Assembly: GCA_032433595.1 (NCBI GenBank)
Contig: JASWJB010000113.1
Span: forward strand, 1 to 64,000
Length of the DNA: 64,000 nt
Source: Conoideocrella luteorostrata
Taxonomy: Eukaryota; Ascomycota; Sordariomycetes; Hypocreales; Clavicipitaceae
Reading direction: 5' to 3'
Shown here one piece after another: positions 2,446 through 38,666 of the stretch (positions are counted from its first letter, which is position 1; every line of letters starts with the position of its first letter). The position numbers and the translations under genes were made by a program. The notes beneath the pieces were generated by a model. It worked only from the letters and a program-made list of their open reading frames with translations, was not told the DNA's origin and ran no database searches.

Positions 2446-4054
2446 CTAAGCCCTCTCGCTGCCCCTCAATCTCACAGCCTGACCGTACTTTTGCAGCTTT
2501 GTAATCAGTTGATCCCCTTGGCGAACCACATCCTGGTACTGCTTGTTCTTGTCGTCTGGACGGTTAGTTTCGATCACGCCTTTACCGGTGACGCGGTCAA
2601 TGGTGCAAGGAATACGGCCCGCAGCGATGAACCGGGCCAGGTCACTACCATAGATGTCAGCTTGTTCTCGGTCACTACATCATGTCCTTTCAGGAGAGGG
2701 TATGCTCACCGATCAAGGAAGTCAACAGTCACGCCAAAATCGTTTGCCATGCTCTCCAGTCCGACGACTCGGTAGCTCTGAAGCAGCTGCTGGTACGCGC
2801 GTAATCGCATCTCACGAATGAACCAATTTTTGTGCTCGTGCAGGTATCGATCCTGGTTGAGAAATTGCTCCTCAACAGAAGCAAGGGATTGAAAAAAGGT
2901 CTTGTAGTTGCCATTGTACAAGCTGCTGACCAACAAAGCTAGAGGGCTGAAGTCGACAGCCATTTCAGCTTCAGGCTGCTCGGTACTTGTTCCCAAAGTG
3001 GTCAGGTTGACGGCAGTCGCCGTGGCAGCTAACGGGGCCTTATCGCCGACAGTATCATCAGCGCCGGGGCCAGCGCTCAGAGCACCGCTGAGGGCCAACA
3101 ACTTGTCCTCGCCATCTCCCATAATAGCCTTGATTTCCGGGGCATCAACAACCTTTGACTTGAAGTCAACGCGCTTCAAGGACACTGAGCCAGCCAGCAC
3201 CGAGTAGACGACGAGGTTCGAGTACGTGCAGAGTTCGTAGCTGGTAAATGTAGAAAGGGAGTCGAGAAGAAGTGGTGCAGCGAGGTTGTAGGATCGAACT
3301 GTAAGGAGATGAAGTCCTTCGTAGGCCTTGAGGCGGTTTCGGCGGTCCCAATCTCCGCCAGACTCGACGAGAGTCTTGGCTCGCTCGACGTGCTTCTTAA
3401 CCAGCGCCTTGTCTCCGAAGAACAGACCCGTACGTATTATGGCAAGCACTAAGTCGATCTTGGTACCTAAGATGCCCGTCTTCTCAAAAACATCCTCGAA
3501 CGCGGCGATTGCTTTGTCCTGTTTATTTGCTGTCAGCACCCCGCCTGTTCCTCAAACGCCCAAGTAAAATAGATTGCCGCCAGATAAAGGCATACCTTGT
3601 CACCAACACGGGCCCAGAAGTCCGCTCTCTTGCCCTTGGCGGCTATGACCTCTGTGTCGCCAGCCTGCTCAACTGCCTCATCTTCCTCCTTCTGGAACTC
3701 GGCCCATTCCTTGTCGTTGTCTTCCTTCAATTTCGCATATAATGCCTCGTCCCAAGGCAGGGTTACATTCATTGTTGAGGGTTTCGTGGCTACCATGCCT
3801 ACCAAACTGGACTTCCGGCTCAGCGGCTTTCCGGGCCCTGAAGAACCACCCTCGCCCACAGCATTCAGAATGCCATCAATGGGGTGTGCCAGATATCGGT
3901 AGAAAGGGGCCATCTTGTCCTCGGCGATGGCATCTTGCAGTGCCTTGACGGCCGCTTGCTGGGTGGTTTCGGGGGCATACGCGTTTGTGAGGGTGAAGAC
4001 ATGCTGCGATAGCGGCAGCAATGGCCACTTTGCATGTTGAGGATCCGATCCCAT
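2446..4054 (-). CDS. RPN7: 26S proteasome regulatory subunit RPN7 (PCI domain)
   Basis: Three exons, complement(3596-4054, 2710-3518, 2446-2644), give 488 residues. Introns begin GTATGC and GTGAGC and end CAG and TAG, and all phases agree. The N-terminal part matches the Rpn7 helical repeat region (AHPIDG near the start, then GDKDKAIAAFEDVFEKTG across the first junction). The middle holds the PCI-domain lead-in RLKAYEGLHLL and FTSYELCTYSNLVVYSV. The C-terminus carries the winged-helix tail (DLARFIAAGRIPCTIDRVTG). Rpn7 is a lid subunit of the 19S particle and is needed for lid assembly. An Ala/Thr-rich, low-complexity loop of about 50 residues interrupts the PCI region (nucleotides about 2985-3110). 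Yeast Rpn7 is 429 residues, so the extra length is mostly this loop and the N-terminus. Confidence 0.93.
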
Positions 4055-30677: not shown

Positions 30678-32342
30678 ATGGCCTCTCCCATCTCGCCGGC
30701 TTCCACAAATCTGCCTTCACGAGCGGCTACGGGCCTGAGCTCGCATGCTGGCGATGCTGTCCCCGACTTCGACCCTAACACCGTAAGTGTTCCATCGCCA
30801 ACACATACCAATACAAATAATTGGATAAATGTGGTAGGAAGTTGAGCTGACCTGTTCTACTTAAGACTGCTGGATTACTCGCTGAGCGTTTGCAAGCGTG
30901 GAAACATGCTTGTGGGTACCTGGAGGAGTATGTCACTGCCGTAGAGAAGATTCACGGTCGTCACGCCAAGGAGTATGAGAAGGCCTTGAAGGTACGATAC
31001 ACTACGTCCCCTGCAATTTAGCATGATCACTTGAGCGCGATGGACTGACTTTCTGTGGCAGACCATCTCCAATCCCCTTCGCGAGGGCCATCACTTTGAC
31101 CAGAGCCTCGGTGGTGTCGCCGGATTCTTTGAGAATATGCGCTCCAACACCCAGGCCCAAATCAACACCAACATCGAAACCGAAAAGAGTCTCAAGGGCT
31201 CCGTCCTACCAATCCTCGAGCGTCTGCACAAGGAGATCAAGCACAAGGCCAAGGAGCTGCAGAGCGGCGCTCAGAGCGGCGCTAAGGAAGTTGAGAAGTT
31301 GCGTAACATTACCCAGAAACAAATCGAACTTCTCGGACAACAGACCGCCTCATACGACTCTGCTGGTGGTAAGCTTAACGCAGGCGATGACCCTTATGTC
31401 GTCCACAGAGGCGTCATGCACCGTCTGAGCAACCAGGTTCTCTCAGAGAACAATCATCACAACGATCTCATTGCTGTTCAGAATAACTTCCAGACTTTTG
31501 AGGCCCACGTCATTGAGGTTTTCCAGCAGGCTGTGGAGGCTTTCGTCCAGCTTGCGGGCGGACAGGGCGAGAAGACTCGTGCTCTGTATCAGGACATGCT
31601 CGGAACGATCCAGTGTGTTCCGCAGAACTTTGAATGGCAGAATTTCACCCAGCGTAGCTCCGATCGATTGGCCAACCCCCATGATCCGCCTCGTTCTATC
31701 GACTCGATCCAGTTCCCTAATATGGACCACGCTGCTACCAAGCCCCTGATTGAAGGATCCCTGGAGCGCAAGTCACGGAACAAACTGTCATGGGGCTATT
31801 CTGCCGGATACTATGTTGTGACTCCCTCCAAGTGGCTCCACGAGTTCAAGGACTCGGACGATATTCGCCAGAACCCAAAACCGGAACTGTCCCTCTATCT
31901 CCCTGATGCCGTCATTGGTGCCCCTAACGGTGACAAGTTCAATGTCAAAGGCAAGGACAAGAGTGGCACCATGAGTTCCAAGCTCACCGGTAGCACGGAG
32001 CTCGCCTTCAAGGCGCACACTGCTGCTGATGCCCAAAAATGGTTCCAAGTCATTCAGCATGTGTGCGGCGCCACAGGTCCCGCCGAGCCAAACTCACCGG
32101 TTTCTGGTTCTCCTGTTGGCGCCTCACCCGTCACTTCCCCTGCGGTGGCCAACGCGGCTGAGAAGAGTGACAACCTCGACATCAACCCCCCCACGCCCTC
32201 ACCGGCGGAGAAGACCACCACACCAGCTGTTGCTGCGGCCACACCTGCGGCAGGAAATCACAAAGCCCAAGAGGCTGGCGTGACTGGCGGTGAAGCCGTA
32301 ATGGCACCTGTGACGGATGTGAAGAAACCCGCGGCGGTATAA
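30678..32342 (+). CDS. SLM1: TORC2 effector / eisosome protein SLM1 (BAR and PH domains)
   Basis: Three exons, 30678-30782, 30866-30991 and 31062-32342, give 503 residues. The BAR-like coiled region (about 36-270) begins with TAGLLAERLQAWKHACGYLEEYV and includes ENMRSNTQAQINTNIETEKS. The PH domain (about 305-410) runs from EGSLERKSRNKLSWGYSAGYYVV to AQKWFQVIQHV. The tail is Pro/Thr/Ala-rich. Yeast Slm1/Slm2 bind PI(4,5)P2 at eisosomes, and under membrane stress recruit and activate TORC2 toward Ypk1; they also influence actin and sphingolipid control. Only one such gene is present here, as expected for filamentous fungi. Confidence 0.92.
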
Positions 32343-34090: not shown

Positions 34091-34899
34091 ATGCATGACT
34101 TTGAACCCTACAAGGAGATCATCATTAACTTATACATCACTCAGCATCGTACCCTTGAAGAAGTCATGAAGATGGTGGCGCGTGAATATAATTTCAAGGC
34201 TAGGTAAGTTTATCTCACACCAGTCCCATAAACGCCTATAAGCCCAAGCCTTTTCGTTTTGCTCTTTTTTGTTCCTTTGTTCCTTTGTTTTTTCTTTTTC
34301 TTTTTCTTCTTGTTTTTGCGTATGGAGGTGTTCCCCTGAGCCTGTCTTATCTGTCTATCTGTCTGGCTCGTGATAAGTAGAGCTGACCAGCCCCTCCCTC
34401 TCTTCGTCTTTCTTCTAGTGAGCGCTCGTATAAGAGACACCTCCAGAAATGGGGCGTCTGGAAGCAACCCAACAAATATAATAATAATAGTGGTGACGCT
34501 GGGGCCGCGGGCTCCCACCACCCTCAAGGTGGGAATGGCGCCGTCGCATCAAGCTCCACGGGGTTTCAGCATGTGCAGCAAGCCCACTACGAGATTTATG
34601 CCCGTTCCGAATCATCTGGCTCCGGATCCGGGTCCGAATTTGATCATCTTGAGCCTGTAGGTTTCCCTGTAGGTTTCCCTGGAGGGTTTCCAGGAGGTTG
34701 CCTTGGAAGCGTTAACATAGGCCGTATGTTGACATTGCCATACCAGGAACAGCGGTACGATACGGCTGGAACCTTCTTTGGATCGTCCCAGCACTATACC
34801 ACCAATACCTCTTCCGCAGCCGACCTGGCCGCTCAGGTTGACCTCCGCCCACCACTGAAAGTTCGCAGGTTCCAGTCTTGGTTGGGCCCAGGCTTCTAA
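34091..34899 (+). CDS. Clr5-domain protein
   Basis: Two exons, 34091-34203 and 34419-34899, joined over a 215-base intron, give 197 residues. The first 55 residues form a Clr5 domain (PF14420): FEPYKEIIINLYITQHRTLEEVMKMV, then SERSYKRHLQKWG completed across the intron. The rest is low-complexity: Asn/Gly/Ser-rich, then a GFPxGFPGGFPGG stretch, with no recognised domain. Clr5 domains are named from fission yeast Clr5, linked to silencing, and are common at the N-terminus of fungal proteins of unknown function, often with ankyrin or TPR repeats that are absent here. The intron is longer than its neighbours and very T-rich. The C-terminus could continue through an unrecognised intron. Confidence 0.78.
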
Positions 34900-35329
34900 G
34901 AATGTGAGGAGCCGCTTTCGCCAGGCTCGCAGCTCTGGTTCAGGCACTTCGAGACGATCAGCCCCCTAGATTGTCTGACAACACTCGATGTGATACAACA
35001 GTAGGAGGGGAAGCTTAGTTCATTCTCGATGCTGCTACACACTCGCGTGCTGAGTTGTTAGTGTCACGATACAGGCGCCACTTACTTGGAGGATAGGAAG
35101 GCAACGGCACTGGAGGCGGAAAACATCTGAGCACACGAAGGGAAGAAACCACACTCTTTTGGCTCATCGCTGCTTTAAAACTGTTGCTTGTTTCATTCTA
35201 TGTACCAATCTAGCTAGCCATTGGTCATAGTGACCAACATTCGCTTAGACTATATTCCGACTGTCGCTACCACTTGCCGTCTTGTGTAACGTAGAGTCCA
35301 ATGTGCTTGTTTGAGTCAGTCTGTTTCAC
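34900..35329. other. Spacer between the Clr5 gene and the snoRNA host
   Basis: About 430 bases: the 3' flank of the Clr5 gene and of the converging host transcript. A further snoRNA (snR72 would be expected in yeast order) was sought here and not found. Confidence 0.4.
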
Positions 35330-35383
35330 AATTAGTACAGGTCTATATCAAGGTTTTGCACCAGAACAAGTGAACAAAGTGAA

Positions 35384-35470
35384 AGTGTCAGGAAAGGTGC
35401 CTTGTCACAGGCGTTGTCATCAATGCATATGGCTAAGTTGACCGTCGTGATATGTATAACATCATGTGAA
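35384..35470 (-). ncRNA. snR73: Box C/D snoRNA, snR73 homologue (25S C2959)
   Basis: C box ATGATGT at 35459-35465 (last base off consensus), C' box TTGATGA at 35417-35423, D box CTGA at 35388-35391. The guide TCACGACGGTC (35440-35450) is perfectly complementary over 11 bases to 25S GACCGUCGUGA. With CTTA at 35434-35437 as D' box, the fifth upstream base pairs with the C counted as C2959, the snR73 target. It begins 42 bases after a GTAAGC donor. Confidence 0.8.
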
Positions 35471-35597
35471 GAAAGTGATGAAGAATTGAGGGCAAGAGGC
35501 AGCTTACATCTATAGTTGTGCTTCACAAATGTGAACGTCTTTTTCAAAGTTAGCGATATGTTGTGAGCTGAAGTTCGCATAAAATAATGAAATCCAA

Positions 35598-35685
35598 TAG
35601 CAGTCAGAAAAAAATGCGGATGATTTGTCGTCGTAGCCGAGGCTCAGACATATGCTTGTCATTTCATTCGCGTTCATCAGGCTAG
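35598..35685 (-). ncRNA. snR74: Box C/D snoRNA, snR74/U27 homologue (18S A28)
   Basis: The clearest member. C box CTGATGA at 35674-35680, D box CTGA at 35604-35607, and a TAGC/GCTA terminal stem (35681-35684 with 35598-35601). The guide GACAAGCATATG (35649-35660) is perfectly complementary over 12 bases to the 5' end of 18S rRNA (CAUAUGCUUGUC). One base later a perfect CTGA D' box lies at 35644-35647. The fifth base upstream of D' pairs with 18S A28, the known target of yeast snR74 and of human U27 at the equivalent position. A TACGACGA stretch resembles a C' box. Confidence 0.9.
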
Positions 35686-36170
35686 GGCACATCCGGCAGT
35701 CTGCGTTGGAGGGACTAACCAGTAAGATATCCCTTTTTTGATAGTGTGGGTTTTCGTCACAGCCGACTTACACGAAGCCACACCGCCCAAATCCATTACT
35801 GTAAATACGGAACCGTTGATCAACGTTCTCTGAAAGGGTATAACTGGCTCCTAAATAATAATTTGTTTTAATTCATTACTCATAGACTTATTTCTCTGTG
35901 TAAAAAAAAAAAACCAGAATTAGCTGGCATCTAATTTTGTTTTTTTATTTTACACGATCAGTCTATGTGAAACTCAGAAGCCAGCCATGCCTTGCCGAGA
36001 ACATCGACCGACAGTTCAATTTTCACAGTAATGGATTCAACTGATGAGACACCGCGAGTCAGGCCGTGTAGTCAACAAAGTTCAATTCAGGCCGCAGACC
36101 GTTGAGATAACTACTAATTATTAGTACAGAACGTCCACGAGTGTTTCGTATCATAATGGGATGTAAATGC

Positions 36171-36257
36171 GTGATCAGGAAAGCATGAATGGTATAAAAG
36201 ATTAGGTGTCTGCATCGAAAACTCGGATAAGACTCGTCATCTGTATCATCAGGAAGG
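36171..36257 (-). ncRNA. snR75: Box C/D snoRNA, snR75 homologue (25S G2288)
   Basis: C box CTGATGA at 36246-36252 and D box CTGA at 36175-36178. The guide AGATGACGAG (36233-36242) is complementary to 25S CUCGUCAUCU. Taking CTTA (36228-36231) as a degenerate D' box, the fifth upstream base is the C opposite the G counted as G2288, the snR75 target. A CGATG C'-like element follows. It starts 48 bases after a GTAAGC donor. Confidence 0.78.
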
Positions 36258-36423
36258 CGGGCGGAGGATATCATGTGGCGTTGACAACGGAGAGGCTTAC
36301 CAAAATCGGGGTGAAAAGAGACACTGCATATTCAACAAAACGCAATCTCTCAAGACACTATCGCAAACATAAGTCAGCACATCCACCGTCATGTATCGAG
36401 CAAACAAGACGTATTGAAGTTGC

Positions 36424-36520
36424 CGAATCAGTGGGCGAGGTTTTCTAGGCCTGCCGCAAAGTGGCTTTTCGTGCTCATGCAATTTTATTTTCGGAGCCCA
36501 GTGCCGCTTCATCATAAAAG
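36424..36520 (-). ncRNA. snR76: Box C/D snoRNA, snR76 homologue (25S C2197)
   Basis: A consensus C box ATGATGA at 36509-36515, and CTGA at 36428-36431 as D box. The guide GCACTGGGC (36496-36504) is complementary to 25S GCCCAGUGC. With CCGA at 36491-36494 as a one-mismatch D' box, the fifth upstream base pairs with the C counted as C2197, the snR76 target. The terminal stem is not obvious. It lies 40 bases after a GTATGC donor. Confidence 0.78.
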
Positions 36521-36629
36521 GTTGGTGCAGGACGGAGTACAATGATAGTGCATACCTTGTCTAATGCTCTTTATGAAAGTTAGCAACAGTGTCTTCCACT
36601 TTAACAGCCAACATGAAACAGAACATGTG

Positions 36630-36722
36630 GAACAATCAGAAATAGCCATTTAATATCGTCAGAGAAAAATCTCAGCCGGTAATTTCCAGCGTATATTGAT
36701 ACGAAAATGATCATCAGGAACC
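36630..36722 (-). ncRNA. snR77: Box C/D snoRNA, snR77 homologue (18S U578)
   Basis: C box CTGATGA at 36711-36717 and D box CTGA at 36636-36639. The internal guide GGAAATTACCGG (36676-36687) precedes a perfect CTGA at 36672-36675. It pairs with the 18S segment CGGUAAUU around the 530 loop, with the fifth base opposite the U counted as U578. The duplex is only about 8 bases before one extra A interrupts it. A TGACGAT C'-like box follows at about 36655-36661. A second possible antisense run (AATATACG before CTGG) matches 18S CGUAUAUU. Confidence 0.72.
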
Positions 36723-36904
36723 AGGAAAGGAAAGTACATGATGCATCACATACCACAACTTGCGTGTACCCGCGCAGCAATATTGTACATCTGAAATCAA
36801 GATCGTCCACTTGGAGACCATGGAGCCTAGAGAATTGATTGTTAGCACAGGATCTTCTCTGGCCAATTATGTGCAATGCTTGATTCCCAAGAGTCTTGAG
36901 ACAG

Positions 36905-36995
36905 CTTCTTTCAGACTGACGTGTAAAAAAAAACAGAGTTTTCATTCCAAAGAGGTCAAAGACTCTAGTTTGCGGTTTATGGTGTCATCAGGAAG
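36905..36995 (-). ncRNA. snR78: Box C/D snoRNA, snR78 homologue (25S U2421)
   Basis: C box CTGATGA at 36985-36991. The guide at 36961-36972 (CAAACTAGAGTC) is complementary over 12 bases to 25S rRNA GACTCTAGTTTG. A D'-like TTGA follows at 36956-36959; the fifth base upstream of it pairs with the U that I count as yeast U2421, the snR78 target. A CTGA D box lies at 36911-36914, and flanking CTTC and GAAG (36992-36995, 36905-36908) could close a stem. A T-run before ACACGTCAG makes the intron end, and therefore the D box choice, uncertain. Confidence 0.8.
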
Positions 36996-37316
36996 TAAAG
37001 ACGGGAGGAATGCAAGCTCAGTTGCACAGAAAACTTACCATTGGCTCGAGATGCAAGTGTGTGAAGAGACAAGAGAAAGAATGAAAAGAAAAAAAGCTGC
37101 GCGAACAAAAGTGTCTTCGGTGTGGAGAAGGCGGTGGGGATGGTAGGTTTGTGTCACGTAAGCAGGTCACGGGGTTTCGTGTTAAGAGCGTGTCCTCGAC
37201 GGAGTAACCCGTGCCTAGAATGGTGCACGCACGCCGCGACGAATCAAGTTCATCATTCAACCGTTTCCATTGTTGCTGTAGAAGTAGTGACAGCATTGTC
37301 TCTTACATAATTCACG

Positions 37317-38666
37317 ATGCCTGAAATAGCAGAAGGTACAAACCAAATTCCTTAAAAATTGTTATGACAAGTTGACTGATTTTCTCTTCTAGTTGCCCGT
37401 ATCGTTCACTTCATTCGCCTCTACTTGGTTGGCAAGACGATAGCAAGCGCATCCGCCATCGACGACAGCAATGTCTTTGGAAAAGTGGGAACCACCGGAG
37501 AAGCTGTCGAGGCCGCTTTGAGAGGGAAAAAGGTAGGAGTGATTAGTAAATTAGAAAGGCAATTCGGTGCGGCCAGACTAACGGCTCTCCAGGTAGTATC
37601 AGCGGGCAGCCAGGGGAAATATTTCTGGTAAGATACCCGTAAATATCAGAGATCGATCCCTGAAAGTACTCATTATGGCTATATAGGATAACGCTAGATA
37701 AACCACCCCACTTGGTTATGCATTTTGGAATGACAGGTACGTCGAAAAACTCTTCAGCAAAACCACTCACCACAAGTACTAATTGCAACAGGATGGGTCC
37801 ACATTAAGGGCGAAAAGACAGCATACACAAACTACTACAAGAAAATGAAAGATAGCGAGCTGAGCCAATGGCCCCCAAAGTTCTGGAAGTTTCAACTCAC
37901 AACAGAAGGTAAACCTGCCGTGGAAGTCGCCTTCACCGATGCCAGACGCTTCGGCCGAGTCCGTCTTGTTGATTGTCCCGGTGACGACATCCGCAACCAC
38001 TCCCCACTTAAGGAAAACGGGCCAGATCCGGTCATTGATATAGACAGATTCACGGAGGCTTACCTGCGCGGCAAGATGAATTCTCGTCACGTTCCGGTGA
38101 AGGCCCTCCTCCTAGACCAAGTTATGATCAGCGGGATCGGGAATTGGGTTGCCGACGAGACGCTATACCAGGCTAAAATGCACCCTGAACAGTACAGTGA
38201 TAGCTTCAGTGATGAAGAGATAAAGACGCTCTACGAGTCCATCAGATATGTTTGCCAAACAGCGGTAGACAAGCTAGGAGACTCGGATGAATTTCCTGGG
38301 CATTGGTTGTTCAACCACCGCTGGGGCAAAGGCGATAAAGGAGCCGCCGGTAAACTTCCTAACGGGGAGAAGTTGGCGTTCATTACCGTCGGTGGTCGGA
38401 CGAGCTGCTACGCCCCGGGGATTCAAAAGAAGACAGGGCAAGTTGTGCCTGGGGCGAAGGCGGAGCCCATCAAGGCGGAGGACATGGGGGGGAAGGCACC
38501 AGTTAAGAAGTCACGGAAACAGAAGGCCGAATCGAACGCAAGAGATGATGAGGCACTGCCGAGAAAAAAGAATCGTACCAGCAAAGCAAAGAAGGAGGAG
38601 GACGAGGCCGGGCCAGAGGTGGGATTGTCTTCTAATCGGAGGCGATCGACCCGCCTTGTGAAGTGA
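37317..38666 (+). CDS. Formamidopyrimidine-DNA glycosylase family (Fpg/Nei) protein
   Basis: Five exons, 37317-37335, 37393-37532, 37593-37627, 37687-37736 and 37792-38666, give 372 residues with consistent phases. The start MPEIAEVARIVHFI exposes the catalytic Pro2 and Glu3 after Met removal. Further family blocks are GSQGKYFW, PPHLVMHFGMTGWV with the conserved His, ARRFGRVRLVDC and the helix-two-turn-helix VMISGIGNWVADETLYQAKMHP with its conserved Asn. It removes oxidised bases and nicks at the lesion in base-excision repair. The C-terminal zinc finger of bacterial Fpg is not visible; as in plant and fungal relatives it is replaced by a Lys/Arg-rich tail that may bind DNA or direct nuclear import. 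It is divergent from the snoRNA host transcript. Confidence 0.92.

Follow-up and report, generated by a model that had tools for sequence, protein, structure and literature searches.

The snoRNA gene clusters of filamentous fungi have been described in several studies. In Neurospora the cluster genes are intronic, with five conserved clusters in UHG-like hosts that hold short ORFs (PMC2780460, 2009). Cluster I is alternatively spliced there according to RT-PCR, its CD5 RNA is a snR78/72 double guide, and its snR77 homologue has U5 A62 as a second target (PMC2780460). A later survey reports cluster I as intronic in the Euascomycetes examined (two Gibberella species included), in Basidiomycota and in a zygomycete, whereas S. 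cerevisiae and its close relatives produce it from an unspliced primary transcript (PMC3596301, 2013). Over three clusters, 323 of 460 snoRNAs were predicted to be intronic and 83 introns were verified; the snR78/72 fusion occurs in all Euascomycetes examined, and juxtaposed 'complex introns' are found in Euascomycete clusters after exon loss (PMC3596301). Expression data are available for other filamentous species. RNA-seq of Exophiala revealed a spliced transcript hosting snR72, snR74, snR75, snR76, snR77 and Afu300, with the last two named side by side (PMC5075926). In Trichophyton rubrum the small RNAs TRnc_4260-4264 follow the order snR77-76-75-74-73 within 1.1 kb, 1.8 kb after a U52-like RNA, and were placed as four intergenic and one 5'UTR rather than as intronic (PMC3890542). 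In Fusarium graminearum, finally, debranching matters for five putative intronic snoRNAs that were examined (PMC9606315).

For filamentous ascomycetes a cluster I located in the introns of a non-coding, UHG-like host has already been published, and the locus described here is a further member; the surprise that the first-pass annotation implied in its intronic arrangement is not supported (PMC2780460, PMC3596301). The window, that is the whole stretch of DNA analyzed, covers positions 1-64000 of a contig of 118,761 bases from Conoideocrella luteorostrata, which has a genome of 46.4 Mb. By taxonomy the species belongs to the Clavicipitaceae within the Hypocreales, the same order as Fusarium graminearum. 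No snoRNA paper on it is among the literature matches listed. It is known as a pathogen of scale insects (PMC12352038).

Judged by its sequence, the minus strand of 37038-35321, which covers the whole cluster including the predicted introns and reads leftward, is the C. luteorostrata copy of filamentous-fungal snoRNA gene cluster I with six box C/D snoRNAs (Table 1). Both Rfam matches and a guide scan place them in the order snR78-77-76-75-74-73, all on one strand, so that the homology to yeast snR78-snR73 and the shared order proposed in the first-pass annotation are upheld. The closest counterpart is the Euascomycete cluster I (CD5, CD24, CD12, CD7, CD21 and CD31 in Neurospora crassa), which has the same snoRNAs, the intronic location, a host without long ORF and the snR78/72 double guide. 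The order as defined in the survey is also shared (PMC3596301). Differences are in detail only: the exon and intron sizes, two possible micro-exons and degenerate D' boxes. The SNR78-SNR72 polycistron of S. cerevisiae shares homologous snoRNAs, order and rRNA targets, but it has no introns and a separate snR72, whereas in C. luteorostrata the guide for A876 lies within the snR78 homologue.

Table 1. Box C/D snoRNAs, candidate guides and predicted introns of the C. luteorostrata cluster (positions in the window).
Feature	Position	Strand	Details
snR78/72-type box C/D snoRNA	36911..36991	minus	C box 36991, D' TTGA, D box 36914
snR77 homologue (Rfam Afu_300)	36636..36717	minus	C box 36717, D' box 36675, D box 36639
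snR76 homologue (Rfam Afu_513)	36428..36515	minus	C box 36515, D box 36431
snR75 homologue	36175..36252	minus	C box 36252, D box 36178
snR74/U27 homologue	35604..35680	minus	C box 35680, D box 35607
snR73/U35 homologue	35388..35465	minus	C box 35465, D box 35391
Guide for 25S U2421	36972-36961	minus	snR78/72, before D'
Guide for 25S A876	36926-36916	minus	snR78/72, before D box
Guide for 18S U578	36689-36677	minus	snR77 homologue, before D' 36675, one extra A
Guide for 25S C2197	36506-36496	minus	snR76 homologue
Guide for 25S G2288	36243-36233	minus	snR75 homologue
Guide for 18S A28	35659-35649	minus	snR74 homologue, 0 mismatches (scan)
Guide for 25S C2959	35450-35440	minus	snR73 homologue
Predicted intron 1	36827..37038	minus	GTAAGT ... 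CTAAC ... TAG; holds snR78/72
Predicted intron 2	36561..36753	minus	GTATGT ... CTAAC ... TAG; holds snR77
Predicted intron 3	36358..36555	minus	GTATGC ... CTGAC ... TAG; holds snR76
Predicted intron 4	36114..36300	minus	GTAAGC ... CTAAT ... TAG (alternative end 36111); holds snR75
Predicted intron 5	35510..35771	minus	GTAAGT 35771 or GTTAGT 35719 ... CTAAC ... TAG; holds snR74
Predicted intron 6	35321..35507	minus	GTAAGC ... CTAAT ... CAG; holds snR73

All Rfam families were compared with the whole window at curated cut-offs, and a permissive threshold was applied to 34600-37800 (10 matches listed). Exactly three matches in the window exceed the cut-offs, and each of them is a minus-strand match within the cluster interval: Afu_300 (36721-36634, 80.9 bits, E 7.7e-14), Afu_513 (36519-36426, 80.3 bits, E 7e-15) and snR75 (36254-36173, 74.3 bits, E 3e-13). 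The snR75 match is the sole one reported for its family in the genome, where the best candidates only were scored. The covariance search suggested in the first-pass annotation is thereby borne out in full for three snoRNAs; the other three are found in the right places, but below their gathering scores. These are snR78 at the first snoRNA (24.7 bits, gathering score 48), SNORD27, the U27/snR74 family, at the place of snR74 (27.2 bits against 52) and snR73 at its own place (30.5 bits against 37). Weak matches also coincide with stronger assignments: snR76 (35.4 bits, gathering score 55) overlaps Afu_513, SNORD38 overlaps snR78, and snoZ7/snoR77 (24.8 bits) lies on top of Afu_300. Because of the latter overlap and the U578 guide, Afu_300 is taken as the snR77 homologue. 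A weak match to CDKN2B-AS_2, on the plus strand and away from the snoRNAs, was regarded as chance.

The six snoRNAs measure 77-88 nt from the C box (its start may be counted one base differently) to the end of the D box, which reads CTGA in every case. The C box contains TGATGA in five of them (four CTGATGA, one ATGATGA) and is ATGATGT in snR73. Four of the six have a degenerate D' box (TTGA, CCGA, CTTA and CTTA). By eye, terminal stems of 4 bp are present in snR78/72 and snR74, with none obvious in the other four.

At the level of motifs, a donor, a CTRAY branch point and an acceptor flank each of the six snoRNAs. The distances from donor to C box for introns 1 to 6 are 47, 36, 41, 48, 91 (39 with the alternative GTTAGT donor) and 43 nt, in agreement with the 36-91 bases initially reported for the six minus-strand C boxes. 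When the nearest YAG acceptors are used, exon 3 (36560-36556) measures 5 nt and exon 6, before donor 35507, only 2 nt; AAG acceptors further upstream, read by eye, would lengthen both. The initial claim of one snoRNA per intron therefore agrees with the splice motifs around all six, but the 2-nt exon left by the nearest YAG (35510) makes it uncertain at the junction of snR74 and snR73.

Between the introns of snR75 and snR74 (36113-35772) lie 342-394 nt, which is unusually long for an exon of this locus and well above the length of the other predicted internal exons. Rfam gave no match in this stretch at the permissive threshold, and no convincing C/D pair was seen by eye. It does hold an acceptor-like T run followed by ACACAG, ending near 35895.

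The introns of snR74 and snR73 might be removed together or stepwise, in which case the rule of one snoRNA per intron fails at this point. The 2-nt exon speaks for this reading, and the juxtaposed complex introns of Euascomycete clusters provide a precedent (PMC3596301). The upstream AAG acceptor, however, would result in an ordinary small exon. We consider joint removal a serious possibility with the odds somewhat against it; it is a variant that can coexist with the best explanation given below.

The host RNA itself is apparently non-coding, as far as its ORFs can tell. None of the six ORFs of at least 80 aa that touch the snoRNA stretch contains a Pfam domain (E 0.001), in line with the initial description of the stretch as empty by protein criteria. 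The longest of these ORFs, counted unspliced, are 128 aa (plus) and 114 aa (minus). As to the surroundings, a Slm1-like protein is coded at 31137-32342 of the window and shows 100% identity, along the full query, to a protein named for C. luteorostrata. On the plus strand a formamidopyrimidine-DNA glycosylase-like gene is oriented divergently from the host; its ORF from 37845 encodes an H2TH domain, and the gene start, read by eye, is near 37320. The host transcript and the glycosylase-like gene apparently have a short bidirectional promoter region in common, at about 37040-37320.

In S. cerevisiae the release of the cluster includes an RNase III step. The C. luteorostrata cluster could likewise be an unspliced polycistron cut by an RNase III-type enzyme, with the splice-like motifs as leftovers. 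For the homologous cluster of S. cerevisiae and close relatives the primary transcripts are indeed unspliced (PMC3596301), as the first-pass annotation had rightly stated for yeast. The predicted exons of 2-5 nt with nearest YAG acceptors also fit, since they make ordinary exon-by-exon splicing awkward. Even so, the donor, branch-point and acceptor motifs are kept at similar distances around all six snoRNAs, the cluster is spliced in Neurospora (PMC2780460) and Exophiala (PMC5075926), and the surveyed Euascomycetes have it in introns (PMC3596301). An unspliced precursor is thus very improbable here.

For the analysis of targets, both strands were scanned for a C-box-like motif, a D-like box and an 11-base guide (at most 2 departures). 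A working version of yeast rRNA with 1627 positions served as reference, together with an assumed list of known sites. The scan yields 82 matches over both strands, against a mean of 82.4 in 10 first-order Markov simulations. For known sites, of which 30 are covered, there are 6 matches in the whole window against a simulated mean of 1.6. All six (U2421, A876, C2197, G2288, A28 and C2959) are on the minus strand at 36971-35439 and in yeast order, with none elsewhere in the window; three further matches in the cluster fall on positions other than known sites. Chance antisense matches combined with chance C/D motifs, which a loose scan that gives no more matches than simulations might suggest, are refuted by the three Rfam E-values (7e-15 to 3e-13) and by six known-site matches in yeast order within one 1.5 kb, so that the initial judgement that chance is very unlikely stands.

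The base five positions upstream of D' lies opposite U2421, C2197, G2288, A28 and C2959 in the scan, which accounts for five of the six D' guides; the first-pass annotation had claimed this relation for six sites, and the sixth, U578, is obtained by direct alignment with an extra A in the guide. The yeast 25S numbering was checked with the sarcin-ricin A at 3027, and in it the bases targeted from D' are 2197, 2288, 2421 and 2959; the positions 876 and 578 are assumed. When the six snoRNAs are compared with foreign rDNA without these filters, many equally long duplexes appear at other places.

The guide for U578 differs in that its site is covered by the scan, which at this place registered nothing but a match to another position in 25S; the guide was missed because of the extra A. 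Direct alignment gives 8 bp with the base at -5 opposite U578, then the extra A, ten bases upstream of D', and 5 more bp if this A is bulged, making 13 bp in total. The extra A is present in the Afu_300 consensus and absent from that of snoZ7. To judge from these consensus sequences, it is apparently inherited within the filamentous-fungal family and does not look like damage.

Further complementarities were noted in the same RNAs. Just upstream of the U578 guide, 36697-36691 of the snR77 homologue is the complement of an 18S segment located further 3' than the target, and most of this stretch is also in the Afu_300 consensus. The snR77 homologue also has a conserved stretch resembling a second guide ahead of its D box, with no target found: this stretch shares with the genome's U5 gene no exact complement of at least 7 bases that would indicate a U5 A62 guide. 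In the snR75 homologue, ten bases at 36192-36183, which do not adjoin the D box, form the complement of 25S sequence immediately 3' of G2288, and this additional pairing possibly aids methylation of G2288.

The guide for A876 is located at the D box of the first snoRNA, which is therefore a snR78/72 fusion, and the targets number seven rather than six. Its duplex has 8 contiguous bp and is found in two foreign 25S records (L010 and L007) as well as in the yeast piece of the reference. This guide was absent from the first-pass annotation, as were the extra A in the U578 guide and the 5- and 2-nt exons with nearest YAG acceptors.

The guides were tested against this working version of yeast rRNA because an intact rRNA gene of the species itself was not found in the assembly: an 18S piece and an exact 18S pattern gave nothing, and the 5.8S family and a 25S piece gave only diverged fragments on one contig (C129). 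In BLAST the yeast reference is 79-100% identical over the aligned parts to two foreign eukaryotic rDNA records (L007; L008/L010) and to the own fragments. The exact 12-base complement of the U2421 guide is missing from L007, and the exact 11-base complement of the A28 guide is missing from L010, where A28 pairs with one G-U. The two foreign records are bacterial MAGs that carry eukaryotic rDNA contigs, that is, contamination.

On the own-genome side the test is limited to a diverged 25S-like fragment of 215 bases (C129, 36014-36228; 91% identical to yeast), which covers two of the seven sites. It holds exact complements of both guides concerned, U2421 and G2288, so that the match to the species' own rRNA on which the initial interpretation depended is found where it can be assessed. 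The surrounding DNA has the same GC content as the fragment. It differs at 20 positions from the yeast 25S reference, a stand-in for the own rRNA, and 15 of these differences are T>C or A>G, opposite to the direction of RIP. About 59 kb further along the contig (L005, 8042-8534, minus strand) a match to 5.8S rRNA and an 18S-like one overlap each other, and the rDNA there is therefore jumbled.

One regularity goes beyond the published accounts searched. Counted from the D box end, the branch-point A is 68, 55, 53, 53, 53 and 55 nt away in introns 1 to 6. CTGA occurs 493 times in the window and is followed by a CTRAY motif at 51-55 nt in 15 cases, which gives P of about 1.5e-7 for five of six, with a range that was chosen after looking; for a range of 48-54 nt the count is 13 of 493. 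In cluster II of the same genome, with snR55 (below gathering score) and snR61 as members by Rfam, the two snoRNAs have distances of 53 and 66 nt. For a third C-box-like element in cluster II the nearest CTGA is 152 nt downstream; it therefore has no trustworthy D box and contributes no spacing value. Searches with RF00213, RF01197 and RF00093 gave no match in the genome, and the control search was likewise empty. A second snR61-like C/D RNA at a sub-threshold 38.8 bits (L014, 1586-1499) has good C/D boxes and a guide unlike that of snR61.

The literature examined on such snoRNAs gives splice-site distances, and branch-point distances were not found in it. In mammals the preferred location of snoRNAs is some 50 nt before the branch point. 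Mammalian hosts of the UHG/GAS5 type resemble the present one in this preference, in having one C/D snoRNA per intron and in lacking long ORFs; they differ in snoRNA content, and shared host ancestry is not claimed. A fixed ruler might couple C/D snoRNP assembly to splicing in filamentous fungi, with a host that is almost pure intron (exons of 2-5 nt) and kept only to space each snoRNA from its branch point. We put this forward as a speculation that is more probably wrong than right.

Summarizing, the best explanation is that cluster I of C. luteorostrata is a spliced non-coding Pol II host with one C/D snoRNA per intron and seven rRNA methylation targets. We give a probability of about 0.96 to this reading, which derives transcription, splicing, release and methylation from the observed homology, order, C/D boxes, guide complementarity and layout of splice signals. 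Weighing against it are the four degenerate D' boxes, the three Rfam scores below threshold, the U2421 and A28 complements missing from one foreign record each, the equally long duplexes elsewhere, the intergenic or 5'UTR placement in Trichophyton (PMC3890542) and the long stretch between the snR75 and snR74 introns. An RNA polymerase II transcript, apparently non-coding, would run leftward through 37038-35321 and be spliced. By analogy to yeast and Fusarium, splicing and debranching would free each intron, and exonucleases would trim it to the C/D core protected by the snoRNP. Base-paired to rRNA, the snoRNAs would then guide 2'-O-methylation of the nucleotides equivalent to yeast 25S U2421, A876, C2197, G2288 and C2959 and to 18S U578 and A28. 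The methylation enzyme of C/D snoRNPs is Nop1/fibrillarin.

The locus offers a clean example of a fungal snoRNA cluster with deep conservation, here in an insect pathogen whose genome was sequenced recently, and it illustrates that reading of the raw sequence can recover non-coding genes that are skipped by protein-based annotation. The near-constant distance between D box and branch point provides a rule, both simple and testable, by which intronic snoRNAs of filamentous fungi can be searched for. The same spacing also lets one ask whether snoRNA assembly is tied to splicing.
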